Positions 23,504 through 53,262 of a stretch of 56,319 bases of DNA are shown in pieces. Position numbers and translations under genes: made by a program. A model generated the notes under the pieces. It was not told the origin of the DNA. It saw only the letters and a program-made list of their open reading frames with translations, and made no database searches. This DNA is from Proteiniphilum sp. (GTDB taxonomy: Bacteria > Bacteroidota > Bacteroidia > Bacteroidales > Dysgonomonadaceae), in the NCBI GenBank assembly GCA_028709605.1, contig JAQVWR010000010.1, positions 1 through 56,319 on the forward strand. Reading direction: 5' to 3'. Position 1 is the first letter of the stretch; each line of letters starts with the position of its first letter.

Positions 23504-23541
23504 ATTTTTTAGCTTTCAGCGATCAGCAGTCAGCAGTCAGC
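23504..23541. repeat. Heptamer array B upstream of lpxB
   Basis: On the plus strand AGC recurs at 23511, 23518, 23525, 23532 and 23539. Read in the lpxB direction the units are GCTGACT, GCTGACT, GCTGATC, GCTGAAA, then GCTAAAA and the ATG. The A of ATG lies 10 nt (7+3) after the last GCT. Confidence 0.88.
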
Positions 23542-23550
23542 TCCAAAATG

Positions 23551-24315
23551 CTAAATCTCCCACTTCTTCAGCTCCGGCAGAAAATCGTATGCCGTCATAT
23601 TGATCTTCACCGGCACAACCGCCGCATATCCGTTAGCCAACGCCCATTCATCGCTATCCACATTGTCAGCCTCCCAATTCTCGAAGTTACCGGTCATCCA
23701 GAAGACATCTCTCCCCAAACCGTCCTGAGAGGGTTGATACTCATTTACCCACTTGCCCTCGGTCTGGGTAGTCATCCGGACACCTTTTATTTCGCCGGCA
23801 GGGACATTGACATTGAGACAAACGCCCCGTGGAAGGCCTGTCCCGATCACTCTGGCAGCCAGCCTGCGTGCCAGCGATGCCGTCGCCGAGAAATCGGCAT
23901 CAGCGGAAAAGTCGCAAAGCGAGAAGCCGATGGAGGGAACCTCGAAGATACACCCTTCGATGGCAGCACCCATGGTGCCGGAGTAGATGACACTGATGCC
24001 CGCATTGGAACCGTGGTTGATGCCCGAGACCAGCAGATCCGGTTTGCGGGGTACAAACTCATTCAGCGCCAGCTTCACGCAGTCAACCGGTGTGCCGTTG
24101 CACATGTAGGCAGTAAGCCCCTCCTCGCGGTGATAAACCCTGGCCCTCAGTGGCAACGAGGTGGAAATGGCACTCGACATCCCCGACTGGTGTGTGTCGG
24201 GCGCAAAAACAATGATCTCTCCCAGTCCTTTCATCGCTTCCATCAGCGAGTTGATTCCCTTCGCCTGATACCCGTCGTCGTTGGTAACCAGGATCAGGGG
24301 TTTTCTGTTACCCAT
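23551..24315 (-). CDS. surE: 5'/3'-nucleotidase SurE
   Basis: A 254-residue metal-dependent nucleotidase and exopolyphosphatase family member. The metal site is formed by LVTNDDG near residue 11, SGMSSAIS, and LVSGINHGSNAG; GTPVDC is also conserved. I choose the ATG at 24315 (MGNRKPLILVTNDDG), not 24333 or 24414, because the -7 box TATCTTTG at 24336-24343 would place transcription start at about 24330, inside the longer forms. The next gene in the same direction is lpxB; the pair is probably an operon. Confidence 0.92.
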   Translation of the reverse strand: MGNRKPLILVTNDDGYQAKGINSLMEAMKGLGEIIVFAPDTHQSGMSSAISTSLPLRARVYHREEGLTAYMCNGTPVDCVKLALNEFVPRKPDLLVSGINHGSNAGISVIYSGTMGAAIEGCIFEVPSIGFSLCDFSADADFSATASLARRLAARVIGTGLPRGVCLNVNVPAGEIKGVRMTTQTEGKWVNEYQPSQDGLGRDVFWMTGNFENWEADNVDSDEWALANGYAAVVPVKINMTAYDFLPELKKWEI

Positions 24316-24335
24316 ATACTCATTTTTTTTCATGG

Positions 24336-24343
24336 CAAAGATA
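24336..24343 (-). promoter_or_regulatory. -7 box of surE-lpxB
   Basis: Minus strand TATCTTTG. A TTG lies 22 bp further upstream as a possible -33 element. It helps fix the surE start codon. Confidence 0.5.
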
Positions 24344-24430
24344 GTGAAATAAAGCCATTTTCCCGCAACGGGAATTGTTACGAACAAAAATAAATCGCTC
24401 AATGGTACAGGCAAAACGCCAACTATTGTA

Positions 24431-24438
24431 TATCTTTG
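24431..24438 (+). promoter_or_regulatory. -7 box of the alkaline phosphatase gene
   Basis: TATCTTTG, perfect match, 35 bp upstream of the ATG at 24474. No clear -33 element or Pho-box-like direct repeat. Confidence 0.5.
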
Positions 24439-24473
24439 AATGTTGATTCAGTAAATCTTATATTTTTTCAGAT

Positions 24474-26102
24474 ATGCGTAAAATTCAGATTTTCTTTTTT
24501 CTACTGCTCGCTTCGGCAACCCTCTTTGCTTCGGAAGTGAGACCGGTAAAGAACCTGATCGTGATGATCCCCGACGGCACCTCCATAAGCGTCTACTCGG
24601 CGGCACGCTGGTTCAAGTATTACAACGGGCTGGGAGAACGACTGAACATAGACCCTTACATCACCGGCACCGTCACCACCTTCTCCTCCAACGCCCCCAT
24701 CGGAGACTCCGCCCCTACCAGTTCGGCTTACGCCACGGGGGTGCTCCAGCAGACGGGGAACATTGCCATCCACCCCGAGGTGTCGGACAACGATCTCTTC
24801 CCGGTGGATGCCGCCCGCACCTGGCAGCCGGCAGCCACCATCCTCGAGGCATTGAAGATCGAGAAGCACAAAGCGGTGGGTTTAGTGGTCACCTGCGAGT
24901 TTCCCCATGCCACGCCGGCCGATTTTTCCGCGCACCACTATAAGCGCAACAACTACAAAGCACTCGCTCCGCAAATAGCCTATCAGAACCTCGATGTGAT
25001 GTTTGGCGGTGGCAACGGCATCCTCACCGACGATATCCGGCAGCATTTTGCCAATAACGGTACCACCCTGATCCAAAACGACCGGCAGGCACTGCTCGAT
25101 TACAAGGGTGAGAGAAAGATATGGGCGCTCTTTGGTGAGAAAGCGCTGCCTTACAATATCGACAGGAACCCCGATAAGGTACCCTCCCTTGCCGAGATGA
25201 CCGGCAAGGCGCTGGAGCTCCTCTCCAGAAATGAGAACGGCTTTTTCCTGATGGTGGAAGGCAGTCAGGTGGATTGGGCGGCGCACGCCAACGATCCGGC
25301 GACCATGATCAACGAGTTCCTCGCCTTCGATGAGGCGGTGGGCAAGGTGACGGAGTTTGCCAAAGCCGACGGAAACACGGCCGTGGTGATCCTCTCCGAC
25401 CACGGCAACAGCGGCTTCTCTATCGGCAGCAGAAGATGCAGCGGCTACGACCGCCTCTCTATTGCAGAGCTGTTCGGCACCGTCTCAAAATTCAAGCTGA
25501 GCAACAACGGATTAGAGTCGATCCTGATCAAAACGCCGCCGGAGAAGATCAAAAGCGTCTTCAAAGAGTATACCGGCATTGATATCACCCAAGAAGAGCT
25601 GGAGAAGCTGCTCTCCTCAAAGAACTACAAGGAAACCGATTATATGAAGGTGGGTACCAGCGACAACTTAGCACACAACATCGGGGACATCCTGAACACA
25701 CACACCTGCTTTGGCTTCACTACCGGCGGTCACACCGGAGAAGAGGTACTGCTGGCAGCCTACCACCCGCAGGGGGATGTGCCAAGGGGCAATATACGGA
25801 ATACGGATCTGAACCGCTACCTGCAGCAGGTGACCGCGTTAGACTGTTCGCTCGAGGAGCTGTCGGACCGTATCTTCGTGAAGCATGACAAGGTGTTTGA
25901 AGGCATGAGTTACTCCATCAACAGGGACAACCCCGACTACCCCGTACTGATGGTGAAGAAAGGCAAAACACGAATAGAGATCCCCGCCTTCTCCTCCGTG
26001 GCGAAGAAGAACGGCAAACCATTCGACATCGGATCGGTGGTGGTTTATATCGACAAGAACGACACCTTTTATCTCCCGGCAAGCCTGAGAGAACTGTTCT
26101 GA
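24474..26102 (+). CDS. Alkaline phosphatase (PhoA superfamily), exported
   Basis: A 542-residue phosphomonoesterase with a signal peptide (IQIFFFLLLASATLFAS). The metal site starts with IVMIPDGTS (Asp), the phosphorylated Ser is in IGDSAPTSSAYATG near residue 85, and further ligands are in VDWAAHAND, VVILSDHGNSG and TTGGHTGEEV. The core extends to about residue 440; the last ~100 residues form an extra beta-rich domain, also seen in other Bacteroidetes homologs. It probably acts in the periplasm to release phosphate. Followed by a terminator at 26125. Confidence 0.9.
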   Translation: MRKIQIFFFLLLASATLFASEVRPVKNLIVMIPDGTSISVYSAARWFKYYNGLGERLNIDPYITGTVTTFSSNAPIGDSAPTSSAYATGVLQQTGNIAIHPEVSDNDLFPVDAARTWQPAATILEALKIEKHKAVGLVVTCEFPHATPADFSAHHYKRNNYKALAPQIAYQNLDVMFGGGNGILTDDIRQHFANNGTTLIQNDRQALLDYKGERKIWALFGEKALPYNIDRNPDKVPSLAEMTGKALELLSRNENGFFLMVEGSQVDWAAHANDPATMINEFLAFDEAVGKVTEFAKADGNTAVVILSDHGNSGFSIGSRRCSGYDRLSIAELFGTVSKFKLSNNGLESILIKTPPEKIKSVFKEYTGIDITQEELEKLLSSKNYKETDYMKVGTSDNLAHNIGDILNTHTCFGFTTGGHTGEEVLLAAYHPQGDVPRGNIRNTDLNRYLQQVTALDCSLEELSDRIFVKHDKVFEGMSYSINRDNPDYPVLMVKKGKTRIEIPAFSSVAKKNGKPFDIGSVVVYIDKNDTFYLPASLRELF

Positions 26103-26124
26103 CACATCACCACCTGCGCACCGT

Positions 26125-26156
26125 AAAAACTCCACTCAATTGAGCGGAGTTTTTTT
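26125..26156 (+). terminator. Terminator of the alkaline phosphatase gene
   Basis: An 11-bp stem with one mismatch (ACTCCACTCAA with TTGAGCGGAGT) directly followed by seven T; the A-rich left flank allows minus-strand use too. Confidence 0.75.
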
Positions 26157-26178
26157 GTGATTGAAAGCACACAACCGA

Positions 26179-26469
26179 CTACCTGTCAGCCTCTTCCCTG
26201 CTCCTGACATTGCCCCGGAACGAGATGGACTGCCTGTTCACGTCATTCACCACCAGGCTGGATGAACCATTTTCCCAGATGTCGAAGCTGAAAGTGACCG
26301 ACCGGTCCAGATCGTGTATCGTGATCAGGGCAATCCAGTTTCCCCTGCGACTGCCGGAACCATACCGATAAATAAAATCGGTGCTGGTAAACTGAAATCC
26401 TCCTTCATTCAAATGACGGATGATCCAACGCCGGATTGTACAAATCAATCCGCTGCAGATGAATCCCAT
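26179..26469 (-). CDS. Hypothetical protein, 96 residues
   Basis: A small frame 30 bp downstream of the DUF6427-type gene on the same strand. The first ~20 residues are partly hydrophobic (MGFICSGLICTIRRWIIRHL); the rest is rich in beta-forming residues (NWIALITIHDLDRSVTFSFDIWEN, in two pieces) with an Arg/Glu-rich end. Codon use is similar to its neighbours. I do not recognise a family. It may be a real conserved small protein or the remains of a longer one. Converges on the alkaline phosphatase gene. Confidence 0.5.
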   Translation of the reverse strand: MGFICSGLICTIRRWIIRHLNEGGFQFTSTDFIYRYGSGSRRGNWIALITIHDLDRSVTFSFDIWENGSSSLVVNDVNRQSISFRGNVRSREEADR

Positions 26470-26499
26470 ATAATAAACAGCCTGAGTACCCGAAATGTT

Positions 26500-27519
26500 T
26501 CAGGAAAGGAACGCATGGAAAGGATCAAAATGAGAGAGATAAAACAGCAGCATCACGACTATGTTGAGAGATGCCAGCCATCCATCGCTCCTGGCATTCG
26601 TACGGGTGAAATAGTAGGCATTCAGGTAGGAGATCAACGCGATGGCAAGGGTCAGGAAGAAGAGCGTCCGGCTCCAGTAGATGACCTGGAGCAGCAGGAG
26701 AAACACAACTAAATAGACCACAAACCGCATCAGCTTGAGGGTGAGCACTTTGTCCCGGGAGTATGTCCGGGTGCTGAGAATCATGTTCGAGATAAAAAAG
26801 AGCGCCACAAACAGCACGGCGATCCATTCTGTAATGGAATAGTCCGGAAGGAGGGGAACGGAGAAAGCGGAAAAGAAGCGGAAAGGCTGCAGGAAGCCAT
26901 ACACATCATCCTGAAGGAAATGGACTGAGAAAAGGGAGAGATAAACCAGCAGGATGCCGAACAGAAAGGTGAGAAGAGCACGCCACTGAGAACCGCGCAT
27001 GGACCGTTCGCCTCTCCACCAGAGGGGTACAAGCGCCAATGCCCCAATGTGGAAGAGGGAAGCGAACGCAATCAGGATGGCCGACCGGAAGGAGCACAGA
27101 TAGGCTTCCTGTTTTTGATAGGATTGCAGCAGCGGAAAGAAAGCCAGCAGAACACCGATCACCGCCACCAAATCGGCCGACATGACCAGGAACCGGGGAT
27201 GAAGACTCAACAGGAAGAGCGGCACCATAAAAGGGAGGTTCGACCGTGTGCGGATCAACGCAAAACGGTTGTTCATTGAGTGGATCAGTCTGGCAATCAG
27301 CAAAACGGAGAGGGTGGATGCCGCCAGTGAAACCACCGGATCGGAGAAAAAAGGAGCCAGATACTGCCAGAGATGGCTGCTGTCAGGGTAGGATATTGGC
27401 CTGTCTTTTGCCTGAGAAAACAGCAGCACCCGCATTCCTATGATCACCAACGCAACAGGGAACGATACAAAACGTCCCTCAACGACGGTTCTCCGGAAGG
27501 TGCGGACAAAAGATGACAT
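26500..27519 (-). CDS. DUF6427-type polytopic membrane protein
   Basis: A 339-residue protein with about ten hydrophobic segments spread over its length, for example FPVALVIIGMRVLLF, VAVIGVLLAFFPLL, LLTFLFGILLVYLSLF, IAVLFVALFFISNMIL and VVYLVVFLLLLQVIYW. The general layout, the ends and the position next to a purine gene remind me of Bacteroidetes proteins labelled DUF6427; this is a weak family call. The function is unknown. Encoded 21 bp downstream of purD in the same direction and probably cotranscribed. Confidence 0.7.
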   Translation of the reverse strand: MSSFVRTFRRTVVEGRFVSFPVALVIIGMRVLLFSQAKDRPISYPDSSHLWQYLAPFFSDPVVSLAASTLSVLLIARLIHSMNNRFALIRTRSNLPFMVPLFLLSLHPRFLVMSADLVAVIGVLLAFFPLLQSYQKQEAYLCSFRSAILIAFASLFHIGALALVPLWWRGERSMRGSQWRALLTFLFGILLVYLSLFSVHFLQDDVYGFLQPFRFFSAFSVPLLPDYSITEWIAVLFVALFFISNMILSTRTYSRDKVLTLKLMRFVVYLVVFLLLLQVIYWSRTLFFLTLAIALISYLNAYYFTRTNARSDGWLASLNIVVMLLFYLSHFDPFHAFLS

Positions 27520-27540
27520 ATCTGAATGGAAATAGGGATG

Positions 27541-28818
27541 TTACAGCTTACACAGGTCGAAACCAATATCCTTCCGGTAATTGCAGCGCTCAAAACGGAT
27601 CCGGGAAAGGCTGCAATAGGAACGCTCCAGGGCATCATCCATCGTCTGACCATAGGAGGTGATAGCCAGCACGCGCCCTCCATCGGTGACCACCCGGTTC
27701 TCTTTCCTCCGGGTGCCGGCATGAAAGAGGATGCTGTCGGTCACCTGATCAAGACCCAGGATCTCCTTTCCTTTCTCATACGGCCCCGGATAACCACCCG
27801 AGACCATCATCACCGTGACGGCCGTACGATCGTCGATCTCCAGCTTCCTCCGGTCGAGCGTCTCCGTGGTGACGCCGATAAAGAGATCGAGCAGATCAGA
27901 CTTGATGAGCGGCATCACTACCTCCGTCTCCGGATCGCCCATCCGCACATTGTACTCGATCACCCTGGGCTCCCCATCTACCTTTATCAGACCCAGGAAG
28001 ATAAACCCTTTGTAATCGATCCCTTCCCGGCGCAATCCCTCGATGGTGGGCTCTACAATCCGTGTGCGCACCTTCTCCATAAACAGTTCATCGGCAAAGG
28101 GAACAGGCGAGACAGCGCCCATGCCACCGGTATTGAGACCGGTATCGCCCTCTCCGATGCGCTTATAGTCTTTGGCTACCGGCAGGATCTTATAAGAGCT
28201 GCTATCGGTCAGTACGAAGACAGAACATTCAATGCCTGAGAGAAACTCTTCGATCACCACGCGACGGCTGGCACTCCCGAACTTACCATGAAGCATCTCT
28301 TCCAGCATCCGGCCGGCTTCCTCCACATCCTCCAGGATCAGCACCCCCTTGCCGGCTGCCAGCCCGTCGGCCTTCAGGACGTAAGGCGACGGGAGGGAGT
28401 GAAGGAAGGCTTTTCCTTCCTCAATGGTATTGGAGGTGACGGTTTGGAACCGTGCCGTGGGAATCTGGTGACGCATCATGAAGTGCTTGGCAAAATCCTT
28501 GCTCCCCTCCAGCTTTGCTCCTTCCTTTGAAGGGCCGATCACGGCGATATGGCAGATGTCCTCGTCGTCACGGAAGAAATCATAAACCCCCTCCACCAGC
28601 GGATCTTCGGGTCCCACCACAATCATGTCGATGTCATGCTCCAGCGAAAACCGCTTCATCGCCCCAAAATCGGTCACCGCGATGGGCACGTTGGTACCCA
28701 ACTGAGCGGTACCCGCATTGCCCGGGGCAATATAGAGATTGTTCAAGTAACTGCTTTTGCGTATTTTCCACGCTATAGCGTGTTCACGCCCTCCGGAGCC
28801 AAGAAGAAGAACATTCAT
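27541..28818 (-). CDS. purD: Phosphoribosylamine-glycine ligase
   Basis: A 425-residue ATP-grasp enzyme, step 2 of purine synthesis. The N-terminal motif [17 protein letters not shown] is diagnostic; [27 protein letters not shown] and the metal-binding [13 protein letters not shown] follow in order. Length is normal. The -7 box TAGCTTTG at 28886-28893 lies 67 bp upstream. First gene of a run with the membrane protein and hypothetical protein downstream. Confidence 0.95.
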
Positions 28819-28885
28819 AAAATCAGTGAGTCTTTTTCAAAATTAAGTGCTGCTGCCCGGGCAGAAACAAACGGACAACAACGCA

Positions 28886-28893
28886 CAAAGCTA
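28886..28893 (-). promoter_or_regulatory. -7 box of purD
   Basis: Minus strand TAGCTTTG, TAnnTTTG match, 67 bp upstream of the start codon. No purine riboswitch fold is evident in the leader. Confidence 0.4.
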
Positions 28894-28986
28894 CTAAAAA
28901 AAATCAAAAATGGCACCGGCGGTTCTGAAAAATGGGAGCAGGGAGGAAGAAACAGGAAAAAAAAGCTCCTTTCAGCGTGAAACCGC

Positions 28987-28994
28987 TATCTTTG
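28987..28994 (+). promoter_or_regulatory. -7 box of the NPD-family gene
   Basis: TATCTTTG, perfect match, 17 bp upstream of the ATG at 29012, so the leader is only about 10 nt. Confidence 0.5.
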
Positions 28995-29011
28995 CATATA
29001 AAAAAAGAGTT

Positions 29012-29965
29012 ATGGTTCAAAACAGAGTATGCAGCCTTTTCGGCATCCGCTATCCGGTGATCCAGGGAGGGATGGTCTGGTGTAGCGGCTGGCGACTGGC
29101 CGCAGCGGTCAGCAATGCCGGGGGATTGGGACTGATCGGCGCCGGCTCGATGCATCCGGATACGTTGCGCGAGCATATTGTCAAATGCAGGGCAGCCACA
29201 CAGAAGCCTTTCGGCGTAAACATTCCGCTGATGTACCCGCAGATCGAGGAGATCATGCAGATCGTGACAGCGGAAAAGGTGCCGGTGGTCTTCACCTCCG
29301 CAGGGAACCCGAAGCCATGGACCAGCCGACTGCAAAGCGCAGGGATTACCGTGGCACACGTGGTCTCCGGCTCCCGCTTTGCCCGAAAAGCGGCAGAGGC
29401 GGGTGTCGATGCCATCGTAGCCGAAGGATTTGAAGCAGGCGGCCACAACGGACGCGAGGAGACCACCACGCTGACCCTAATCCCGCAGGTGCGTGCCGCC
29501 ACGGAGCTGCCGCTGATCGCTGCCGGCGGCATCGCCACCGGCGGGGCCATGGCGGCCGTGTTCGCACTGGGTGCCGAAGGGGTACAGGTGGGCACCCGTT
29601 TCGCACTCACCGCAGAGAGCTCCGCCAGCGAGGCTTTCAAGCAGCGATGCATCACACTGAATGAGGGAGAGACCTTCCTTTCACTGAAGAAAGTAAGTCC
29701 CACGCGACTGATTAAAAACGATTTCTTTCTGAAGGTACAGGAGCTCGAAGAACGGGGTGCCACTGCCGATGAGCTCCGCGAGCTGCTGGGGCGGGGACGC
29801 GCTAAAAAAGGCATCTTTGAAGGCGATCTCACCGAAGGAGAGCTTGAGATCGGACAGATTGCCTCCCACATCCGGAAGATCCTGCCTGCCGACGAGGTGG
29901 TCCGTCAAATGATGGAGGAGTACCACGATACGCTGCAGCGTTTGTCGGGACAATCTTTCGCATGA
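29012..29965 (+). CDS. NPD-family flavoprotein (nitronate monooxygenase or FabK-like)
   Basis: A 317-residue FMN-binding TIM barrel. RYPVIQGGMVWCSGWRLAAA and NAGGLGLIGAG mark the N-terminus; EGFEAGGHNGREE, LPLIAAGGIATGGAM and GAEGVQVGTRFALTAESSAS form the FMN site. Nitronate monooxygenases and the enoyl-ACP reductase FabK share this fold; the E-x-GGHxG motif and size suit FabK-like members, but I cannot separate the two. The start at 29012 is chosen because a -7 box at 28987-28994 would place the longer frame (from 28910) before the transcript. PtpA follows 76 bp later. Confidence 0.83.
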   Translation: MVQNRVCSLFGIRYPVIQGGMVWCSGWRLAAAVSNAGGLGLIGAGSMHPDTLREHIVKCRAATQKPFGVNIPLMYPQIEEIMQIVTAEKVPVVFTSAGNPKPWTSRLQSAGITVAHVVSGSRFARKAAEAGVDAIVAEGFEAGGHNGREETTTLTLIPQVRAATELPLIAAGGIATGGAMAAVFALGAEGVQVGTRFALTAESSASEAFKQRCITLNEGETFLSLKKVSPTRLIKNDFFLKVQELEERGATADELRELLGRGRAKKGIFEGDLTEGELEIGQIASHIRKILPADEVVRQMMEEYHDTLQRLSGQSFA

Positions 29966-30041
29966 TGACCGTCGCCCCTTCTCCATGCAACAAAAAAGCA
30001 CATGCAGGAGACCACAACACAGCACAAAAAGCAACCAATAT

Positions 30042-32216: not shown

Positions 32217-32266
32217 CCCTACCGTGTGCTCACAGAGCTGCTCGGGGTTTTTTCCTGAAAACTTAC

Positions 32267-32274
32267 TATCTTTG
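32267..32274 (+). promoter_or_regulatory. -7 box of the MBL-glycosyltransferase operon
   Basis: TATCTTTG, perfect match, 9 bp upstream of the ATG at 32284; the transcript would be nearly leaderless. Confidence 0.5.
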
Positions 32275-32283
32275 CATCTGGTT

Positions 32284-36276: not shown

Positions 36277-36293
36277 AGAAGACAATTAAAAAA

Positions 36294-36319
36294 AGCTGAC
36301 AGCTGATTGCTGAATGCTC
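36294..36319. repeat. Heptamer array C upstream of the RNA methyltransferase
   Basis: GCT at 36295, 36302, 36309 and 36316 (units GCTGACA, GCTGATT, GCTGAAT, GCTCAAA). The chosen ATG at 36326 is 10 nt (7+3) after the last GCT. A decoy ATG at 36314 lies inside the array. Confidence 0.85.
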
Positions 36320-36325
36320 AAAAAA

Positions 36326-36862
36326 ATGAACCGAAGAAAACTCAAACTGGAAGAGCTCAACCGCATCAGTGTGGAAGAGTTCCAAAAGGCGGAAAAGATA
36401 CCGCTGACGGTGGTGCTCGACAATGTGCGCAGCCAACACAACATCGGGTCGGTGTTCCGTACGGGGGATGCCTTCCGGGTGGAGGAGATCCTGCTCTGCG
36501 GCATCACTGCGACGCCGCCGAATGCGGAGATACACAAGACTGCGCTGGGTGCGGAGGATTCTGTGAGATGGTGCTATTTAGAGGATACCCTTGCGGCAGT
36601 CAGGATGCTGCAAGAGAAAGGATATACCGTCTATGCGGTAGAGCAGGCGGAGCAGAGCCTCTCACTGGAGCAGCTGCAGCTGCAGGGGAACAAAAAATAC
36701 GCCGTGATCCTCGGTCATGAGGTGCACGGCGTACAACAGGCGGTAGTCAATGCCTGTGACGACTGCCTTGAGATCCCGCAATACGGCACGAAACACTCAC
36801 TCAATGTGTCGGTCGCCGCGGGGATCGTGATCTGGGATTTCTTCCGCCACCTCAGTCGTTGA
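36326..36862 (+). CDS. TrmH/SpoU family RNA methyltransferase
   Basis: A 178-residue SPOUT methyltransferase that 2'-O-methylates RNA. The three motifs are visible: VVLDNVRSQHNIGSVFRTGDAF near residue 33, AVILGHEVHGV near 125, and IPQYGTKHSLNVSVAAGIV near 150, forming the SAM knot. Target RNA is unknown. I start at 36326 (MNRRKLKLEELNRISVEEF); the ATG at 36314 lies inside a repeat array and adds only MLKK. Downstream of the GT2 gene in the same direction, 49 bp apart. Confidence 0.9.
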   Translation: MNRRKLKLEELNRISVEEFQKAEKIPLTVVLDNVRSQHNIGSVFRTGDAFRVEEILLCGITATPPNAEIHKTALGAEDSVRWCYLEDTLAAVRMLQEKGYTVYAVEQAEQSLSLEQLQLQGNKKYAVILGHEVHGVQQAVVNACDDCLEIPQYGTKHSLNVSVAAGIVIWDFFRHLSR

Positions 36863-41476: not shown

Positions 41477-41489
41477 CGCACTGACACCC

Positions 41490-41884: not shown

Positions 41885-41903
41885 TAGAAAAAAACGCCCC
41901 GTA

Positions 41904-43133: not shown

Positions 43134-43140
43134 ACCGATT

Positions 43141-43575: not shown

Positions 43576-43585
43576 TTGCCGAGAG

Positions 43586-44401: not shown

Positions 44402-44452
44402 AACCCGTATTACGCAGTTATATATCAGAAACGTACAACGGGTATCAACAAG

Positions 44453-45608: not shown

Positions 45609-45643
45609 AAAGTTAAAACAACCCAGGATCATCAAAAAATCAC

Positions 45644-45651
45644 TATCTTTG
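45644..45651 (+). promoter_or_regulatory. -7 box of the Gfo/Idh gene
   Basis: TATCTTTG, perfect match, 30 bp upstream of the ATG at 45682. Confidence 0.5.
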
Positions 45652-45681
45652 GGTGCTAATCCTTCAAACAGAAGAGAACCT

Positions 45682-46743
45682 ATGTCTACCAACATCCGCA
45701 CGGGCATCATCGGCTACGGCCTTTCCGGCCGGGTATTTCATGCCCCCTTTATCGACGTGGTGGAGGGATACGACCTGACTAAGATCAGCACCTCCCGCCC
45801 CGCAAGCATCGCAATGATTGAAGAACGCTACCCGGTCACGGCTGTCGTCCCCGACGGAAAAAGCATCATCGATGATCCGGAGATCGACCTGGTGATCGTC
45901 ACCTCACCCAACACCGACCACTTCCGCTGGTCGCGCGAAGCCCTGCTGGCGGGCAAGCATGTGGTGGTGGAGAAACCTTTTACCGTCGACGTGTCGGAAG
46001 CCGATGAACTGATAGAGATCGCCCACAGACAGCAGAAGATCCTCACGGCATACCACAACCGCCGCTTTACCAGCGATACACGAACGGTGAAAAAACTGCT
46101 CGACAGCGGGCTGCTGGGGGAGATCGTCGACTATGAGACCCATTTTGACCGGTATCGTGCCGATCCCCGCCCTGGCGGTGCCTGGCGCGAACAGCCGCTA
46201 CCCGGATCCGGTATCTTCTACGATCTGGGCTCTCACCTGATCGATCAGGCTCTCTGGTTCTTCGGCATGCCGGAGGCGGTAACGGCTGAGATCAACATGC
46301 AGCGTGAATGGGCGAAAGCCGATGACCATTTCGACGTGCGCCTGCACTACCCCTCCTTCACAGCCACCCTCAAGTCGGGCATGATCTGCCGTATCCCGGG
46401 ACCCACCTATCTGCTGCACGGCACCAACGGTTCGTTCGTCAAGTACGGACTGGATGTGCAGGAAGCTGCCCTCGATGGGGGAGCCATCCCGAAGGGAAAA
46501 GAGTGGGGACGTGAGCCGGAGAGCATCTGGGGAACAATCCACGCCGAGTACAAAGGGGTGAAGTTCCAGGGAAAAGTAGAGAGCGAGCCGGGCGATTACC
46601 GCGACTACTTCATCAACCTGCGCGACGCCATCAACGGCAAGGCGGAGCTGGCAGTAAAGCCGGAAGAGGCACGCAACGTGATACGAATCATCGAGCTGGC
46701 CTTTCAAAGCAACAGGGAGAAGAGAACGATCACAATCGAATAA
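45682..46743 (+). CDS. Gfo/Idh/MocA family oxidoreductase
   Basis: A 353-residue NAD(P)-dependent dehydrogenase. The Rossmann motif is TGIIGYGLSGRVFHAPF at residues 7-23; LVIVTSPNTDHF and the catalytic-site GKHVVVEKPFTVDVSEAD follow, and GSGIFYDLGSHLIDQALWFFG is in the C-terminal domain. It resembles the E. coli YdgJ/YhhX group. Substrate, probably a sugar derivative, is unknown. Start at 45682 (MSTNIRT); the longer frame starts at the -7 box. Alone on its transcript. Confidence 0.9.
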   Translation: MSTNIRTGIIGYGLSGRVFHAPFIDVVEGYDLTKISTSRPASIAMIEERYPVTAVVPDGKSIIDDPEIDLVIVTSPNTDHFRWSREALLAGKHVVVEKPFTVDVSEADELIEIAHRQQKILTAYHNRRFTSDTRTVKKLLDSGLLGEIVDYETHFDRYRADPRPGGAWREQPLPGSGIFYDLGSHLIDQALWFFGMPEAVTAEINMQREWAKADDHFDVRLHYPSFTATLKSGMICRIPGPTYLLHGTNGSFVKYGLDVQEAALDGGAIPKGKEWGREPESIWGTIHAEYKGVKFQGKVESEPGDYRDYFINLRDAINGKAELAVKPEEARNVIRIIELAFQSNREKRTITIE

Positions 46744-46872
46744 AAGACCTACAGCAATGTACACAACGGCATCGGTGTTGTGGGTGCCGTATCAACCGCA
46801 ACGGCACAAATCCATATTCCCCCGTTTCCGGGAGGAGAAAACAGGATTCCCAGAAGATGACAACGATCTTGC

Positions 46873-47757
46873 CTACAAAAAGAAAATGGTCGCTCCACCA
46901 ATGCTGATCACTGCCCCAATCACCTGACGGGCTGTGATCTTCTCTTTGAACATGATGGCGGTGGGAATGATGATAAAGATAGGTGTCAGCGCCATCAGCG
47001 CGGAGGCAATCCCTGTCTCGGTGTGCTGCACCGCGTAGAGCGAGAGGGATACCCCTATGAAGGGTCCGAAAACAGTACCGATCGTGATCGCCTTCATCCC
47101 CGTGTTATCGCGCAACGTCATGAACACGCGCCGCCATCGGCCCACAAAGGTTACCAACAGGGCAAAAGCAACAAAACCAAAGATGGCCCTGATCTGGGTA
47201 GCTGCAATCGGGTCATAGTCACCCATCCCCTTCTTACTCAGAATCAATCCCACTGCCTGTCCCAGTGCACCTCCCAACGCGTATAGAAAGCCCCGCAGAG
47301 GGATATTCAGCTTCAGGTTCTTACCGGCCACGGCAATCATGATGCCGGTTACGCTCACTACGATCCCCGCGATACTTTTCAGTGAGAGGATCTCCTGCAG
47401 GAAGAACCAGCCGATGACAGCGGTGATCATCGGGGCAAGGCTCATCACCAGCTGTGAGGTTCTTGAGCCGATCAGTATATAAGACTTAAAAAGTAAAAGA
47501 TCGCCCAGAAAGAAACCAACGATACCGGAGAGACCCAGCCATGCCCAGTTATAGGCATTGGCATCCATTGGGAAGAACATCCCGCGGGTGAAGAGGGTGG
47601 TGATTCCCAGAAAGAGTATCCCCAGGAAGATGCGAATGATGTTCACCGACAGTGAGCCGGTGCGGCGACCAGCTTTCTCGAAGAAGATGGCGCTGAGCAT
47701 CCAGCAAACGGCAGTTAGGAGTGAGGCTATCTCACCGATATGTGACTGAAATGGCAT
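46873..47757 (-). CDS. EamA/DMT family permease
   Basis: A 294-residue membrane protein with ten predicted helices arranged as two EamA repeats (first from IASLLTAVCWMLSAIFFEKAG, second from FLYALGGALGQAVGLILSKKG). Family hallmarks: an end-of-repeat segment LAPMITAVIGWFFLQEIL and, in repeat two, LTPIFIIIPTAIMFKEKI, with a final GAVISIGGATIFF. Such carriers export amino acids or other metabolites. It lies next to the trp operon on the same strand, so tryptophan or aromatic export is a possibility only. A -7 box TACATTTG is at 47801-47808. Confidence 0.88.
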   Translation of the reverse strand: MPFQSHIGEIASLLTAVCWMLSAIFFEKAGRRTGSLSVNIIRIFLGILFLGITTLFTRGMFFPMDANAYNWAWLGLSGIVGFFLGDLLLFKSYILIGSRTSQLVMSLAPMITAVIGWFFLQEILSLKSIAGIVVSVTGIMIAVAGKNLKLNIPLRGFLYALGGALGQAVGLILSKKGMGDYDPIAATQIRAIFGFVAFALLVTFVGRWRRVFMTLRDNTGMKAITIGTVFGPFIGVSLSLYAVQHTETGIASALMALTPIFIIIPTAIMFKEKITARQVIGAVISIGGATIFFL

Positions 47758-47800
47758 TTATCTGATCCCTTAATACTGTAACCATGAAAAAATGTGGCAG

Positions 47801-47808
47801 CAAATGTA
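47801..47808 (-). promoter_or_regulatory. -7 box of the EamA gene
   Basis: Minus strand TACATTTG, TAnnTTTG match, 43 bp upstream of the ATG. It lies in the 75-bp gap after trpA, so the permease has its own promoter. Confidence 0.45.
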
Positions 47809-47832
47809 CGGGATTTTTTTGAATATGCAGGA

Positions 47833-48603
47833 TCAGCGAATCGCTTCCCTCAGTTTTTTCGCGGCTTCCGCAATCGATGGCTCGCTGCCCAGCAGAGAGA
47901 TGAAGCGGCTGCCGATGATGGCGCCCGACGCTTCGCGGCAGGCAGCCTCGAAGGTCGCCCTGTTGGAGATGCCGAAGCCGACGAGCCGCGGGTTTTGCAG
48001 TCCCATGCCATTGACCTTCCGGAAGTAGGCCAGATTGCTCTCGCCGAAGCTCTCTTTCGCCCCGGTAACCGATGCAGAGGAAACCATATAGATAAAGCCG
48101 GAGGTATGATCGTCGATCAGCCGGATGCGCTCCTCGGAAGTCTCGGGGGTGATCAGCATGATCATATGGAGCCCATGCCGGTCGGCAACAGGCTTGTAAT
48201 GTTCCATATACTCGGCGAAGGGCAGATCGGGGATGATCAGCCCGTCGATGCCGCAACGCTGTGCTGCAGCACAATAGTTCTCAAAGCCGAACTGCAGGAT
48301 GGGGTTCAGATAACCCATCAGCACCAGCGGCACGGTAACCGTGGCACGTACCTGCGCCAGCTGGCTGAAGAGTTTCTTCACGCTCATGCCGTTGTGCAGC
48401 GCTTGTGTCCCCGATGCCTGTATCACCGGGCCGTCGGCCATCGGATCGCTGAAGGGCACCCCGATCTCGATCAGGTCCACGCCCTCCTCCTCCAGCGCCT
48501 GCATTACCTTCACAGTGTCATCGAGGGAAGGGTAGCCCGCCGTAAAATAAACCGATAGGATATGCTCCTTTTTTTGTTGAAATAGTTGGTCAATCCTGTT
48601 CAT
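47833..48603 (-). CDS. trpA: Tryptophan synthase alpha chain
   Basis: A 256-residue TIM barrel that cleaves indole-3-glycerol phosphate to indole. Catalytic Glu and Asp are in VDLIEIGVPFSDPMADGPVIQ (near residue 50, split for length), and the glycerol-phosphate region is near VSSASVTGAKE and VGFGISNRATFE. The start overlaps the end of trpF by 14 bp. Last gene of the trp operon. Confidence 0.95.
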   Translation of the reverse strand: MNRIDQLFQQKKEHILSVYFTAGYPSLDDTVKVMQALEEEGVDLIEIGVPFSDPMADGPVIQASGTQALHNGMSVKKLFSQLAQVRATVTVPLVLMGYLNPILQFGFENYCAAAQRCGIDGLIIPDLPFAEYMEHYKPVADRHGLHMIMLITPETSEERIRLIDDHTSGFIYMVSSASVTGAKESFGESNLAYFRKVNGMGLQNPRLVGFGISNRATFEAACREASGAIIGSRFISLLGSEPSIAEAAKKLREAIR

Positions 48604-49213
48604 GTCTGATTTGATATAAAAATAATTTTAATAAGACAACAGCCTTCATCGCCGGGGCGGTTTCAAAACCGCTGTTGAGATCGATGCCGGCAAATTGCGG
48701 ATGGGAGAACGCCCTGACGGCATCCGCATCATCCGGCGTGATGCCCCCGCTCAGCAGGAAAGGGGTCTTCCCCCGATAGTCTGAGAGCAGCTCCCAGCAG
48801 AACTTTTTACCGGAACCACCGTACTGCGGGGTACCCGTGTCGAAAAGGAAGAAGTCACAGCTCCCCTCATACGGTTGTATCTGCTCCGCGGGGAAAGGTT
48901 TTCCGCTCTCCACACCGAACACCTTGATCACCCGGTATCCCTGAAGCCGAAAAGCCCTGCAAACGTCCGGAGGCTCACTGCCATGCAGTTGCAGAAGCTG
49001 CAGCCGATAGTGTGCAGCAAGCTCCGTCACCTTCTCAGGCGCTTCATCAACAAACACCCCCACCCTTTTCATCCGTTCAGGGAGATAGGTAAGCTGATTA
49101 CCGGCATAACGCGGCGAGCCCGGGTAAAAGATAAAACCCATCCAGTCGGCACCCAGCTGTTCCACCGCCCGGATATTGTCTGCATTCCGCATGCCGCATA
49201 TTTTGATGATCAT
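48590..49213 (-). CDS. trpF: Phosphoribosylanthranilate isomerase
   Basis: A 207-residue TIM barrel that isomerises PRA to CdRP. Catalytic Cys in MIIKICGMRN at the N-terminus, the catalytic Asp in FFLFDTGTPQYGGSGKKF, then FLLSGGITPDDA and GIDLNSGFETAPAMK. ATG at 49213 is chosen; the frame upstream reaches into the heptamer array at 49228-49260, which ends 14 nt before the ATG. Confidence 0.95.
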   Translation of the reverse strand: MIIKICGMRNADNIRAVEQLGADWMGFIFYPGSPRYAGNQLTYLPERMKRVGVFVDEAPEKVTELAAHYRLQLLQLHGSEPPDVCRAFRLQGYRVIKVFGVESGKPFPAEQIQPYEGSCDFFLFDTGTPQYGGSGKKFCWELLSDYRGKTPFLLSGGITPDDADAVRAFSHPQFAGIDLNSGFETAPAMKAVVLLKLFLYQIRHEQD

Positions 49214-49227
49214 AATTTTTTGATATA

Positions 49228-49260
49228 AGCTGCAAGCTATTAGCAATAAGCTTTAAGCTT
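49228..49260. repeat. Heptamer array F upstream of trpF
   Basis: AGC recurs on the plus strand at 49228, 49235, 49242, 49249 and 49256. In the trpF direction units are GCTTAAA, GCTTATT, GCTAATA, GCTTGCA and GCTTATA, a T/A variant with TAA stops. The ATG is 17 nt (14+3) after the last GCT. Confidence 0.8.
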
Positions 49261-49270
49261 CTTATTATTG

Positions 49271-49322
49271 AACCATAAACTACGAACTTTCCAACCCACA
49301 AACCTACTAACCTACTAACCTA
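49271..49322. repeat. AAC-rich tandem repeat at the trpC 3' end
   Basis: AAC recurs at 49271, 49278 and 49285 (7-nt step), then AACCTACT-type units at 49301, 49309 and 49317 (8-nt step). On the trpC strand it reads GGTTAGTA repeats, and the last trpC codons (DRLVG) lie within it. Confidence 0.65.
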
Positions 49323-50104
49323 TCAATTTCTCCCAGGAATGTTTTCAGCGACTCCCCCGGATCTTCGCTCTTCATAAAATGCTCGCCGATCAGGAATCCC
49401 CGGTAGCCGGCATCACGCAGCTCCCGCACGATCATCGGATCGGAGATACCACTCTCGGAAATCAGCAACGCCTCCTTCGGCAGGAGGCTGATCATCCGAA
49501 ACGACTTGTGCACGTCGGTGACAAAACTGCCCAGATGACGGTTGTTGATGCCGATCAGCCGGTTGAGCGGAGTGATGTATTCTGTCTCCCGCTCATCGTG
49601 CAGCTCCAGCAACACCTCCAACTGCAACTGGTAAGCCAGCTCCGTAAAGCGCCTGCACTCTTCCCGCGTGATGGCGGCGGCGATCAGCAAGATCGCGCTG
49701 GCACCCGAGCATTTGGCTTCATAGATCTGGTACGCGTCAACGATGAACTCTTTCCGCATCACCGGGATGGTCACGTTCTTCGTTGCTGCACACAGGTCGG
49801 CCCGTGTGCCGCCAAAGTAGGGCTCATCGGTCAGCACCGACAATGCTGCCGCCCCTGCGGCTTCATATGCCTTCGCCACAGTTGTTACCTCCGCCAGCCG
49901 GTTAATCCACCCCTTGCCGGGGGAACGCCGCTTGAACTCGGCGATAATACCGGTAGATGACTGTTCCAATGCAGTTTTCAGCGAATGAAAGGGAATCGTT
50001 TCTGCCGACACCCTTTTCTCCAGAATAGAAAAAGGTGTTTCCTCTTTCCGTCGTGCCACCTCCTTTATTTTGTGCGCGATGATCTCTTCCAGTATATCTT
50101 GCAT
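49307..50104 (-). CDS. trpC: Indole-3-glycerol phosphate synthase
   Basis: A 265-residue TIM barrel that closes the indole ring. IIAEFKRRSPGKGWIN has the catalytic Lys and phosphate site, VLTDEPYFGGT and PVMRKEFIVDAYQI hold further catalytic residues, and IGINNRHLGSF and LLISESGI follow. A stand-alone TrpC (not fused to TrpF). The heptamer array D abuts its ATG directly, and its last codons lie in another tandem repeat. Confidence 0.96.
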   Translation of the reverse strand: MQDILEEIIAHKIKEVARRKEETPFSILEKRVSAETIPFHSLKTALEQSSTGIIAEFKRRSPGKGWINRLAEVTTVAKAYEAAGAAALSVLTDEPYFGGTRADLCAATKNVTIPVMRKEFIVDAYQIYEAKCSGASAILLIAAAITREECRRFTELAYQLQLEVLLELHDERETEYITPLNRLIGINNRHLGSFVTDVHKSFRMISLLPKEALLISESGISDPMIVRELRDAGYRGFLIGEHFMKSEDPGESLKTFLGEIDRLVG

Positions 50105-50160
50105 AGTTTTTAGTTTTTAGTTTTCAGCGGTCAGCGATCAGCAATCAGTGGTCAGCCGAG
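50105..50160. repeat. Heptamer array D abutting trpC
   Basis: Eight units with AG starting at 50105, 50112, 50119, 50126, 50133, 50140, 50147 and 50154. In the trpC direction: GCTGACC, ACTGATT, GCTGATC, GCTGACC, GCTGAAA, ACTAAAA, ACTAAAA, ACT then ATG. The ATG itself occupies positions 4-6 of the next unit. Confidence 0.92.
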
Positions 50161-50192
50161 ATCTTTTGAATGCTGATGCCGGGGCTCATATT

Positions 50193-51188
50193 TTATTGGT
50201 TGATTTCCGTAAATTTCTCCAACACATACAGTGCTTTTTTTCCATAGAGGGCATCTTTCGCGATCTCCAGACACTCGCCGATGGGCTTCTCCTGCTCAAT
50301 AGTCTGTATGCCGAAAGCGGCATTGGCCAACACCGTATTCATCTGTGCCTCCGTTCCTTCGACGTGCAGCACCCTGTGGAAGATGCGGGAGGCCTCTTCG
50401 GGGGTATCCCCGCCGTAGAGCGCTTCCTGCGCCACCGGGCTGAAACCCAGGTCACCCGGCATAAAAAGCTGCTCCCCCATGTTCGACACCACCTTGAAAC
50501 GGCCGGTGAGGGAGATCTCATCATAGCCGTCGAGGCTGTGCACAATACTGAACCGCTTGTTCTCCGCCTGGTAGATGTAGCTGTAAAGCCTCGACATGGC
50601 AAGATTATAGACCCCCAGCATCTGATGGCGCGGCTGCACCGGGTTCACTAGCGGCCCCAGCACATTGAAGAAGTTGCGCACACCTAAGCTCTTCCGCACC
50701 GGGGCCACTGCTTTCAGCGCGGGACTGAACAGCGGTGCGTGGAGATAAGCCAGCCCGCAGTCATCAAGGCTTCGGCGAAGCCGGTTGTTGTCCGTAGTAA
50801 ACCGCACCCCGAGACTTTCGATCACGTTGCTCGCCCCACTGATGGAGGTAGCCCCGTAATTGCCGTGCTTCACCACGGGATAGCCTGCTCCGGCAACCAC
50901 GAAGCAGGCAGTGGTGGAGATGTTGAAGGTATTCTTGCCGTCGCCGCCGGTACCCACGATATCGAGGGGATCATAGTCGGAGAGGTCTGCCTGTACCCGC
51001 ATCTCGAGGAGTGCATCGCGAAAGCCGAGGATCTCATCTACCGAGATGCTGCGCATCAAGAAGGAGGTGATGAGCGAGGCGATCTGTGTCTCTGGGACAT
51101 CACCCTTCACAATGGTGAACAGCACCTCTTTGGCTTGTTCCCTTGTGAGGTACTGATAATCGAATAGTTGGTATAGGATCTCTTTCAT
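50193..51188 (-). CDS. trpD: Anthranilate phosphoribosyltransferase
   Basis: A 331-residue enzyme joining anthranilate and PRPP. The PRPP site is DIVGTGGDGKNTFNISTTAC (near residue 80), followed by VVKHGNYGATSISGASNV and the FNVLGPLVNPVQPRHQMLGV region that binds anthranilate. Length is normal. Starts 11 bp downstream of the trpG stop. Confidence 0.95.
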   Translation of the reverse strand: MKEILYQLFDYQYLTREQAKEVLFTIVKGDVPETQIASLITSFLMRSISVDEILGFRDALLEMRVQADLSDYDPLDIVGTGGDGKNTFNISTTACFVVAGAGYPVVKHGNYGATSISGASNVIESLGVRFTTDNNRLRRSLDDCGLAYLHAPLFSPALKAVAPVRKSLGVRNFFNVLGPLVNPVQPRHQMLGVYNLAMSRLYSYIYQAENKRFSIVHSLDGYDEISLTGRFKVVSNMGEQLFMPGDLGFSPVAQEALYGGDTPEEASRIFHRVLHVEGTEAQMNTVLANAAFGIQTIEQEKPIGECLEIAKDALYGKKALYVLEKFTEINQ

Positions 51189-51199
51189 GCTCTTATTAT

Positions 51200-51802
51200 T
51201 CAGGGTTGCGGAAAAAGGGGATGATCGAGAAAGTTGCGAATAATGGCCGTGCCCTCGGGGGTGAGGATCGACTCGGGGTGGAACTGCACTCCGTGCAGAT
51301 CGAGCGTACGATGCCTCATCGCCATGATGTAACCTGCGCGGTCCACGGCGGTGATCTCCAGAGAAGAAGGATAATTATCTTTAGAAACAATCCAGGAGTG
51401 GTAGCGTCCCACCTCTATTTCTTCCGGAAGGCCGGTGAAGAGATAATCGTCCGCGACGAAACGAATCGGTGTCTGCACCCCGTGAAAGACGACGGGGATG
51501 TTCTCCAGCCGGGCACCGAACACCTGCCCGATTGCCTGATGACCGAGGCAGACACCCAGAATGCTTTTGCTGTCGGCATACCGCTCAATGAGTGGCAGCA
51601 GCAACCCCGCCTCTTCGGGCAAGCCGGGACCGGGAGAGAGGATGATCTTGTCATATCGCTCCACCTCCTCCAGAGTCATCCTGTCGTTGCGGATCACATC
51701 CACATCGGTATGACCCAACGACTGTACCGCATGCAACAGGTTATAGGTGAAGGAGTCGTAATTGTCGAATATCAATATCTTTTTCATCATCATATGATTC
51801 AT
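51200..51802 (-). CDS. trpG: Anthranilate synthase, glutamine amidotransferase subunit
   Basis: A 200-residue class I amidotransferase that supplies ammonia to TrpE. IFDNYDSFTYNLLH at the start, LSPGPGLPEEAG, the nucleophile in GVCLGHQAIGQVFG, and the His-Glu pair in GVQFHPESILTPEG. Several in-frame ATGs occur; the one at 51802 overlaps the trpE stop as TAATG and suggests coupling, while the one at 51787 (MKKILIFDNYDSF) is the family-like start. TrpE and TrpG act as a complex. Confidence 0.94.
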   Translation of the reverse strand: MNHMMMKKILIFDNYDSFTYNLLHAVQSLGHTDVDVIRNDRMTLEEVERYDKIILSPGPGLPEEAGLLLPLIERYADSKSILGVCLGHQAIGQVFGARLENIPVVFHGVQTPIRFVADDYLFTGLPEEIEVGRYHSWIVSKDNYPSSLEITAVDRAGYIMAMRHRTLDLHGVQFHPESILTPEGTAIIRNFLDHPLFPQP

Positions 51803-53208
51803 TAACTATTATAGAGGGTGGCTGCCTTGTCGATGGCCCGTTTGAGGGCTCCCAGCTTGCTGTTCACCTCCCGCAGCTCATACTCGTCGTTGCTCTGTGA
51901 GACGACGCCCGCGCCGGCCTGGTACCAAAGCTCGTTGTTGCGGCTCACGAAGGTACGGATGGTGATCGCCTGATTGATGTCGCCGTTGAGACCGATGAAC
52001 CCAATACAACCACCGTAGGCACCGCGGTTATGCGATTCGATCTCAGAGATCAGCTGCATTGCCCTCACCTTGGGTGCACCCGAGAGAGTGCCGGCCGGGA
52101 AGGTATCAAAGAAAGCCTTGAGGGGATCGGCCGCCACGTTAAGCGTGCCGGTAACGCGTGATACCAGATGGATCACATGCGAGTAGAACTGCGGCTCCTT
52201 GTAGAAGTCCACCTTCACATCGTGTGCATGGCGACTCAGGTCGTTGCGTGCCAGGTCCACCAGCATCACATGTTCCGCGTTCTCCTTCGGGTCGTTCAGC
52301 AGGAACTCCATCGCCTTCCTATCCTCCTGGTGGTTGCCGGTGCGTTTTGTCGTTCCCGCAATGGGGTCGATGCTGATCTGCCGGCCGCTGATCTTGCAGT
52401 GCGTCTCGGGGGAGGAGCCGAAGATACGGAATCCGCCGAAATCGAAATAGAAGAGGTAAGGCGACGGGTTGATGGAGCGCAGTGCACGGTACACCTTAAA
52501 GTCATCACCCGAGAAGGGCTGTATAAAGCGGCGGGAGAGGACGATCTGAAAGACGTCGCCCCGCAGGCAGTGCTGCACCCCCTGTCGTACATATCCCTTG
52601 AACTCCTCATCGGTGATGGTGCTCCGCTCCTCCCCTTCGGTGAAGAAGTTATAGGTGGCAAAATTGCGCTGGCTGATCAGCGACTCCACCTTTACCAGGC
52701 TGCTCACCTCCTGTTCCCCCTGCAGCTCAAACAGATGGATCTCATCGGTGAAATGGTTGAACATCAACACATACTTGAACAGGATATAGAGCATGTCGGG
52801 GGCATCGTTGCGCTCCTCACGGCTCTCCCTGATGGCGATGTGCTCGGTGTACTTTACGCAGTTGAAGGTGGTATAGCCGAAGAGGCCGCACTGCTGCAGC
52901 TCGTCACCCTTCACCTCAAAACGGGCGATAAAGCGGTTCAACGCATCGGAGACGGTGAACATTTCGGAGAGCGGTTGTTGCTCCTCCTCACCGTCGGGGA
53001 ACAGCGAGGTGCATACGCCCCGGTTCACCTCAATGCGGGCGATCGGCTTGAGAGCCAGGTAGGAGATGCTGTTCTGGCCGGCATGGAAGTCGGAGCTCTC
53101 CAGCAGTGCCGACTGAGGAAAACTGTCCCTCACCTTGAGATAGACGCTTACCGGGGTATGGAGGTCGCCCATCATCGTTTTGCGATTTATTTGATATTTG
53201 TATTGCAT
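51802..53208 (-). CDS. trpE: Anthranilate synthase component I
   Basis: A 468-residue chorismate-using enzyme. The N-terminal SALLESSDF matches the LLES motif that binds feedback tryptophan. The C-terminal chorismate domain has QIVLSRRFIQ, SINPSPYLFYFDFG, ETHCKISGRQISIDPIAGT (Mg and substrate), AEHVMLVDLARNDLSR and FDTFPAGTLSGAPKVRAMQL, GAYGGCIGF. So the enzyme is probably inhibited by Trp as well as controlled by attenuation. Array E lies just upstream of the ATG. Confidence 0.95.
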   Translation of the reverse strand: MQYKYQINRKTMMGDLHTPVSVYLKVRDSFPQSALLESSDFHAGQNSISYLALKPIARIEVNRGVCTSLFPDGEEEQQPLSEMFTVSDALNRFIARFEVKGDELQQCGLFGYTTFNCVKYTEHIAIRESREERNDAPDMLYILFKYVLMFNHFTDEIHLFELQGEQEVSSLVKVESLISQRNFATYNFFTEGEERSTITDEEFKGYVRQGVQHCLRGDVFQIVLSRRFIQPFSGDDFKVYRALRSINPSPYLFYFDFGGFRIFGSSPETHCKISGRQISIDPIAGTTKRTGNHQEDRKAMEFLLNDPKENAEHVMLVDLARNDLSRHAHDVKVDFYKEPQFYSHVIHLVSRVTGTLNVAADPLKAFFDTFPAGTLSGAPKVRAMQLISEIESHNRGAYGGCIGFIGLNGDINQAITIRTFVSRNNELWYQAGAGVVSQSNDEYELREVNSKLGALKRAIDKAATLYNS

Positions 53209-53222
53209 AAGGTTGATTTTTT

Positions 53223-53262
53223 AGCTGATTACTGATTGCTGAAAGCTGATCGCTGACCGCTT
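53223..53262. repeat. Heptamer array E between trpB and trpE
   Basis: On the plus strand GCT (once ACT) recurs at 53224, 53231, 53238, 53245, 53252 and 53259. In the trpE direction the motif is the reverse complement (TCAGCNN). The ATG at 53208 lies 17 nt (14+3) after the nearest GCT on the trpE strand. The trpB stop is 3 bp beyond the array. Confidence 0.88.

Follow-up and report, generated by a model that had tools for sequence, protein, structure and literature searches.

Stranded heptamer repeat arrays at gene junctions of Proteiniphilum and their placement relative to start and stop codons

The stretch of DNA analysed here, 56,319 nucleotides (nt) of Proteiniphilum sp. contig JAQVWR010000010.1 (G000:C8:1-56319 in our genome set, hereafter the window), carries tandem arrays of a seven-nucleotide unit in gaps between genes. 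These arrays belong to a stranded, genome-wide family with the word RCTGANN, whose members are polar: read on the GCTGA strand, their 3' end adjoins the edge of a coding region, either a start codon on that strand or a stop codon on the other one, while the 5' end seldom does so. This polarity rule is stronger than the constant phase between array and ATG on which a preliminary description of the window had centred. The Proteiniphilum pattern has less the look of a new code than of repeat filler that ends where a start signal begins, and the repeat family can now be measured by its spacer preference at starts, its contact rule at stops, its polarity and the conserved head present on part of the copies.

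The window lies within a 2.30 Mb Proteiniphilum metagenome-assembled genome (MAG; 136 contigs, 88% complete), and the nearest named records of its TrpE protein are from Proteiniphilum and other Dysgonomonadaceae-type MAGs. In the window's genome, 74 exact matches to (GCTGANN)3 were found and none to the reversed pattern; with up to two mismatches, these numbers were 250 and 1, respectively. The exact pattern is present in 19 of 61 genomes (the window's own included), 18 of these being among 37 Proteiniphilum genomes. Across the phylum, (GCTGANN)4 was detected in 53 of 395 genomes (again including the window's own), partly as one heptamer copied in tandem, e.g. GCTGAGT. The distant genomes G239 and G350 hold many GCTGA arrays, few of which are near reliable starts, and gene calls looked poor in the GC-rich G239. 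Among the matches listed for the first 0.9 Mb of contig C1 of G239, (GCTGANN)4 is confined to one strand (192 forward and 357 reverse overall), a distribution hinting at replichore bias. Some arrays are located at or near contig ends (C11, C22, C24 and C56 of G000; C44, C58, C99, C133 and C165 of G350); assemblies may break at arrays, whereby long arrays would be under-counted.

Arrays were detected with RCTGANN, scored as core letters matched out of 15 across three units. The cross-genome set covers 817 kb around arrays, the window included, from six Proteiniphilum genomes (G000, which is the window's own, G018, G025, G029, G033 and G034), the surroundings having been chosen among the exact-pattern matches listed, with at most 20 stretches each. 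At least 313 arrays scoring 13/15 or more are present in this sequence, 15 of the 313 being inside called genes, and the 247 arrays that score at least 14/15 outside genes were used for the analysis of polarity. Unit statistics were derived from the interior units of 252 arrays (1446 units): within the core, C, T and A each reach approximately 0.99 and G reaches 0.96, the first position is G in 0.86, and the two NN positions are variable, with G at only 0.04 and 0.02. The commonest array length is five units (95 of 252 arrays).

When the 247 arrays are read along the GCTGA strand, their 3' side faces a start in 170 cases, 51 of them at 10 nt or less, and an opposite-strand stop in 72, 48 of them at 10 nt or less, whereas the 5' side is this close to a stop in 19/158 cases and to a divergent start in 0/77. 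The rule is clearest in co-directional gaps of at least 150 nt, where 26/71 forward arrays have the start, and 1/71 the stop, at a distance of 15 nt or less, as against 0/25 and 15/25 reverse arrays, respectively. In gaps of 80-150 nt, 29 and 4 of 46 forward arrays contact the start and the stop, as against 1 and 15 of 19 reverse arrays; in gaps below 80 nt, contact with both edges is common among forward arrays (start 17/20, stop 13/20) and reverse arrays contact the start in 1/8 and the stop in 8/8. In two further genomes, gaps of at least 80 nt showed start and stop contacts in 15 and 3 of 31 forward arrays, and in 0 and 4 of 10 reverse arrays. As regards a possible truncation of genes by arrays at stops, stop positions at array contacts seemed, by eye and among the gaps listed, to be conserved between orthologues.

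Spacing and phase at start codons

Within 30 nt of a called ATG, 79 forward and 5 reverse arrays (14/15 or better) were found in the six genomes, which supports the placement next to starts noted in the preliminary description. The preferred feature at these junctions is a spacer of about 7 nt that separates the last RCT from the ATG and frequently reads AAAAAAT; GCTAAAAAAT-ATG is representative of such junctions. The gap between the last unit and the ATG is 5 nt in 22/79 and 4-7 nt in 41/79 forward arrays, and 4-7 nt in 14/20 arrays of the two further genomes. In array-bearing genes, A occupies positions -6 to -2 at frequencies of 0.61-0.80 and T occupies -1 at 0.66, as compared to 0.36-0.42 and 0.33 in 307 genes without arrays, values that mis-called starts would dilute. 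In Bacteroidetes lacking Shine-Dalgarno sequences, adenine at -3 favours initiation (Baez 2019, PMC6847099), and the A-rich spacer fits the preference that this paper describes in its passages on Kozak-like initiation regions; such a region is an initiation context and not a repeat, unlike the heptamer arrays themselves.

Phase was defined as the distance from the last RCT to the A of the ATG, modulo 7. For the 79 forward arrays, phases 0 to 6 are represented by 5, 8, 11, 32, 10, 9 and 4 arrays (chance 1 in 7; p=1.3e-8), and when the first in-frame ATG past the array is used instead, 36 of 96 arrays are in phase 3. The bias persists if one array is taken per orthologous downstream gene (mean 17.6/47, p=4e-5) and if the genes of the window and their orthologues are left out (26/71, or 13/44 with one array per gene, p=0.007). 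It is absent from the five reverse arrays. In the two further genomes, phase 3 was observed in 4/20 arrays, which is not significant (chi-square p=0.43), with 2 of the 20 arrays having the same ATG and the stretches of one genome having been picked from matches ending in ATG; pooled over eight genomes, the value is 36/99. A replicate independent of gene calls used the matches listed for five genomes, plus a single line from a sixth; it retained 102 of 128 lines after removal of 26 whose ATG is formed by the repeat unit, and gave phase 3 in 22/102 and phase 5 in 23/102 (p=0.02). Of the listed matches whose last unit is RCTAA, 7/24 were in phase 3 (p=0.046), so that the signal of this replicate is weak. 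The phase bias thus stems for the most part from the first six genomes and is nowhere absolute. Beyond the window, 7k+3 is a preference in six genomes and is not significant in two more, instead of an ATG that is always at the same phase.

Among arrays ending 8-30 nt from the ATG, phase 3 is found in 11/39 (10/34 in the six genomes and 1/5 in the two further ones; p=0.018), and therefore some lattice memory persists past the first spacer via degenerate units. The proposal that the start codon is itself a lattice point or the seed of the array is not supported: orthologues differ in phase (3, 3, 1 and 2 in one case; 2, 4, 3 and 5 in another), the distance left between the last unit and the ATG varies over 4-7 nt, two genomes show no significant bias and the same arrays adjoin stop codons of the opposite strand. 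The companion idea, that spacing to the start may matter, is supported alongside the placement of the arrays and their non-uniform phase. As a caution, a retained initiation spacer can by itself produce a 7-nt phase beside an ATG.

Array turnover, the CCGCTG head and known repeats

Adjacent units resemble each other in the manner of slippage repeats, having identical NN in 229/942 cases (0.24) against 0.12 in permuted arrays, and four trmH orthologues display, by eye, one common tail up to the ATG with differing unit numbers. Gaps were compared across 51 named loci for trp and 60 loci for lpxB and trmH, with 11 lpxB gaps above 700 nt excluded since the upstream stop was misplaced. In other loci, the same gaps contain GCTGA arrays in either orientation or other repeated words, appear ordinary, or measure 1-4 nt. 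Three congeners without arrays have surE-lpxB gaps of 1, 1 and 4 nt, as compared to 47-157 nt at the four array-marked loci; other array-free surE-lpxB gaps are longer than 1-4 nt. Where both orthologous gaps bear arrays (76 pairs in the six genomes), orientation, word and unit number vary.

Period 7 is not restricted to this word. In named loci of congeners, 27 arrays have period 7, 14 have period 8 and most other periods have 8-9, on a constant background of 7-8 per period that probably stems from unmasked N runs, and the period-7 arrays include words unlike GCTGA. L072 and other Proteiniphilum loci carry long arrays of a five-letter core with two variable letters, e.g. approximately 32 units of GAACTNN. 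In 39 arrays labelled as non-GCTGA, some of which are mislabelled GCTGA-type arrays, the two most variable positions are adjacent in 20 as compared to 13 expected (p=0.015). That the five-plus-two pattern is general beyond GCTGA is a lead only.

Part of the arrays are preceded by a conserved head. In 69/247 arrays, the first GCTGA is preceded at a distance of 31 or 32 nt by an exact CCGCTG, which is present anywhere in 11/244 control windows; allowing one mismatch and a distance of 30-33 nt, 99/247 arrays carry a head. By genome, these amount to 33/49 in G029, 30/48 in G034, 13/33 in G025, 13/32 in G018, 8/59 in G000 and 2/26 in G033, with none on the arrays of the window. The sequence between head and array is partly conserved, as judged with an alignment of 36 elements out of the 99 that carry a head, and head-plus-array composites are in places arranged in tandem, such as three at 79-nt spacing in L200 at approximately 11,800-12,000 (reverse view). 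The consensus fold of the same 36 elements reaches -0.42 kcal/mol with three pairs and shows no compensatory changes, single folds of five window stretches (z -2.2 to 0.6) have nothing in common, and a search of the window and L038, L049, L200, L113 and L123 against Rfam 15 at the gathering score returned only tRNA and the Bacteroid-trp leader, with no array matched. A shared structured RNA was accordingly rejected. Classification as a palindromic repeat of the repetitive extragenic palindrome (REP) or bacterial interspersed mosaic element (BIME) type was likewise rejected, given a consensus fold too slight for the hairpin that defines these elements.

A literature search did not retrieve any description of GCTGANN arrays in Proteiniphilum. 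The short tandemly repeated repetitive (STRR) heptamers of heterocystous cyanobacteria are dispersed 7-nt tandem repeats, like the present arrays. The earlier assertion that no named repeat family matches was too strong, as direct repeats of the heptamer TAACTGA, located upstream of starts, are known from marine Beggiatoaceae, from Cyanobacteria and from some Bacteroidetes (MacGregor 2015, PMC4679880). In the passages of that paper describing them, these repeats are intergenic and mostly forward close to a start codon, some being reverse or intragenic; their distribution is sporadic and two close Cyanothece strains differ mainly by 7-nt insertions or deletions. The Proteiniphilum arrays have in common with them the 7-nt unit, the RCTGA core (ACTGATA being TAACTGA rotated) and the location, intergenic and mostly forward to a nearby start. 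By eye, one array (L039:580-731) also contains TAACTGA runs. In contrast, the usual Proteiniphilum unit is GCTGAHH with two free letters as opposed to one exact heptamer, the commonest distance to the start is 5 nt where the TAACTGA repeats end 1 nt before it, and the Proteiniphilum arrays are distinguished from the repeats of that account by a fixed polarity at starts and opposite-strand stops and by a head on part of the arrays. The TAACTGA repeats are the closest precedent, to which the Proteiniphilum arrays are related without being classed as members. Taken together, the spacer, stop contact, polarity and head make it possible to tell slippage, mobility and translational control apart, a distinction that the corresponding passages of the 2015 description leave open. 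A further likeness exists to the class 3 sites of Geobacter metallireducens (PMC2700814), which consist of five tandem MTYCTGA heptamers and occur along with H4 heptamer elements: both are dispersed tandem heptamers of a similar word, and some Proteiniphilum arrays contain CCTGAAT units. The passages of that paper dealing with these sites term them putative binding sites of a global regulator and do not mention spacing to start codons.

Competing explanations

The best explanation, which we hold to be about evenly poised between right and wrong, is that the arrays are heptameric repeat filler at gene junctions, bounded by a stop codon or by an initiation spacer. According to this reading, a degenerate tandem repeat RCTGAHH, usually of 4-5 units, often GCTAA-ended and in part headed by CCGCTG, would be added to Proteiniphilum gene junctions as fast-changing filler, its 3' side on the GCTGA strand extending up to a functional boundary, directly to the stop codon at one kind of edge and to the A-rich initiation region ahead of the ATG at the other. 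The offset to the ATG would then chiefly reflect how long a spacer has been retained, approximately 7 nt counted from the last RCT, with intervening whole units added in some cases, and would not require a lattice set by the start codon. The reading is favoured because the family is stranded (no reversed matches) and patchy within the genus (18/37 genomes), because of the spacer preference together with the stop contacts (48/72 within 10 nt), because of the added DNA at the surE-lpxB gap and the turnover of orientation, word and number, and because period 7 is prominent in congeners with other words too. The arrays would be mostly neutral or selfish, initiation constraints presumably setting the spacer, and gain and loss of units within arrays by a slippage-like process is suggested by the likeness of neighbouring NN and by the trmH tails.

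Several observations weigh against filler of this kind. Neutral slippage fails to predict the polarity, the division into core and variable letters, the peaked unit number or the head. In arrays with up to six NN, adjacent identity is 112/610 (0.18, a value without a permutation of its own), so most units are not fresh copies. Gap lengths of orthologous pairs differ by multiples of 7 in 9/76 cases, and in 4/26 closer pairs (both flanks at least 85% identical), both being about chance, with the L037/L145 pair, which differs by 14 nt, among the few exceptions; evolution by whole units between species was on these grounds rejected, and our confidence in the best explanation was lowered to its present level. 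Since the length differences do not come in 7-nt steps, gaps are replaced between species, and not edited stepwise. Furthermore, fetching by exact pattern and the detector itself are biased towards intact cores and at least three units. A dedicated 7-nt writing process, copying five letters and loosely specifying two per step, that extends arrays in the 3' direction on the GCTGA strand until a coding edge is reached, with different words per species and gene gaps continually rewritten as polar heptad arrays, is improbable in our estimation.

A regulatory leader, in which the ribosome or a protein specific for single-stranded RNA would attach to a GCUGANN array in the 5' untranslated RNA, with the spacer setting the position of the array relative to the start codon, resembles the binding platform that MacGregor proposed for TAACTGA repeats (in the part of PMC4679880 devoted to their role). 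It would account for the excess of forward arrays close to the ATG (79 against 5), the preferred spacer, the retention of the core while NN varies and a leader that is open, conserved RNA structure not having been found in the 36 folded elements. However, reverse arrays adjoin the stop of the upstream gene, where the RNA reads UCAGC, the exact pattern is missing from roughly half of the genus, the same gaps of congeners hold other words or nothing and the ten window genes examined are mutually unrelated, so that we judge this explanation unlikely, if worth keeping in view. We give slightly less credence to a dispersed, non-autonomous mobile element composed of the CCGCTG head, about 31 nt, the array and a GCTAA end, inserting with its 3' end at gene edges, where new copies would displace older ones and create tandem composites. 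The position of the head, more frequent than in control windows, the tandem copies in L200, the polarity in gaps of at least 150 nt and gap lengths that shift by replacement as opposed to 7-nt steps would all be consistent with such an element, while the head is unevenly distributed (from 33/49 in G029 to 2/26 in G033 and none in the window) and junctions vary by a few nt. Growth of arrays from the start codon, with the ATG as the fixed point of a 7-nt lattice, is very improbable: it would accommodate the five window distances, all of the form 7k+3, the 32/79 arrays in phase 3 and the residual bias at 8-30 nt, but 47/79 arrays are in other phases, only 4/20 conform in the two further genomes, orthologues disagree and arrays also adjoin stop codons.

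Arrays in the window

With the RCTGANN detector, five arrays scoring at least 14/15 were found in the window and none in 12 dinucleotide shuffles; at 13/15, there were 6 arrays as against 0-3 in the shuffles. All five arrays of 7-nt period noted in the preliminary description are present, and a sixth member of the family, at 12966-13005 (+), had been overlooked; it is one of the five that the detector scores at 14/15 or better. The distances from the last GCT to the ATG were likewise reproduced, namely 10 nt for lpxB, 10 for trmH, 17 for trpF, 24 for trpC and 17 for trpE, each being 3 modulo 7.

Four of these arrays are indeed forward to the start that they precede. In the surE-lpxB gap, an RCTGANN array (23509-23541, -) is separated from the ATG of lpxB (22367-23503, -; PF02684) by the 7-nt A-rich spacer AAAAAAT (23504-23510, -), located between the last GCT and the ATG. 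The array at 36295-36320 (+) precedes the SpoU rRNA methylase family gene trmH (36326-36862, +; PF00588), its last GCT being 10 nt before the ATG at 36326. Upstream of trpC, the array at 50110-50156 (-) grades into ACTAAAA units, which places the ATG 24 nt from the last GCT and 3 nt from the last ACT. The trpC-trpF gap holds a variant array of GCTTANN and GCTAANN units (49228-49260, -) forward to trpF, which the RCTGA detector missed. In contrast, the array of the trpB-trpE gap (53224-53263, +) is reverse to trpE and has its 3' end 1 nt from the stop codon of trpB, for which reason its distance to the trpE ATG is probably incidental. The sixth array is similarly reverse to the gene that it precedes, its 3' end lying 1 nt from the stop of a fumarase gene (13007-14608, -).

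Beside the heptamer array in the trpC-trpF gap, a period-8 array (AACCTACT) is present at 49293-49322. Upstream of the trp cluster, at 54572-54702 (-), the window has an Rfam match to the Bacteroidete trp peptide leader RNA (RF01692) with a score of 50.7 bits against a cut-off of 49.

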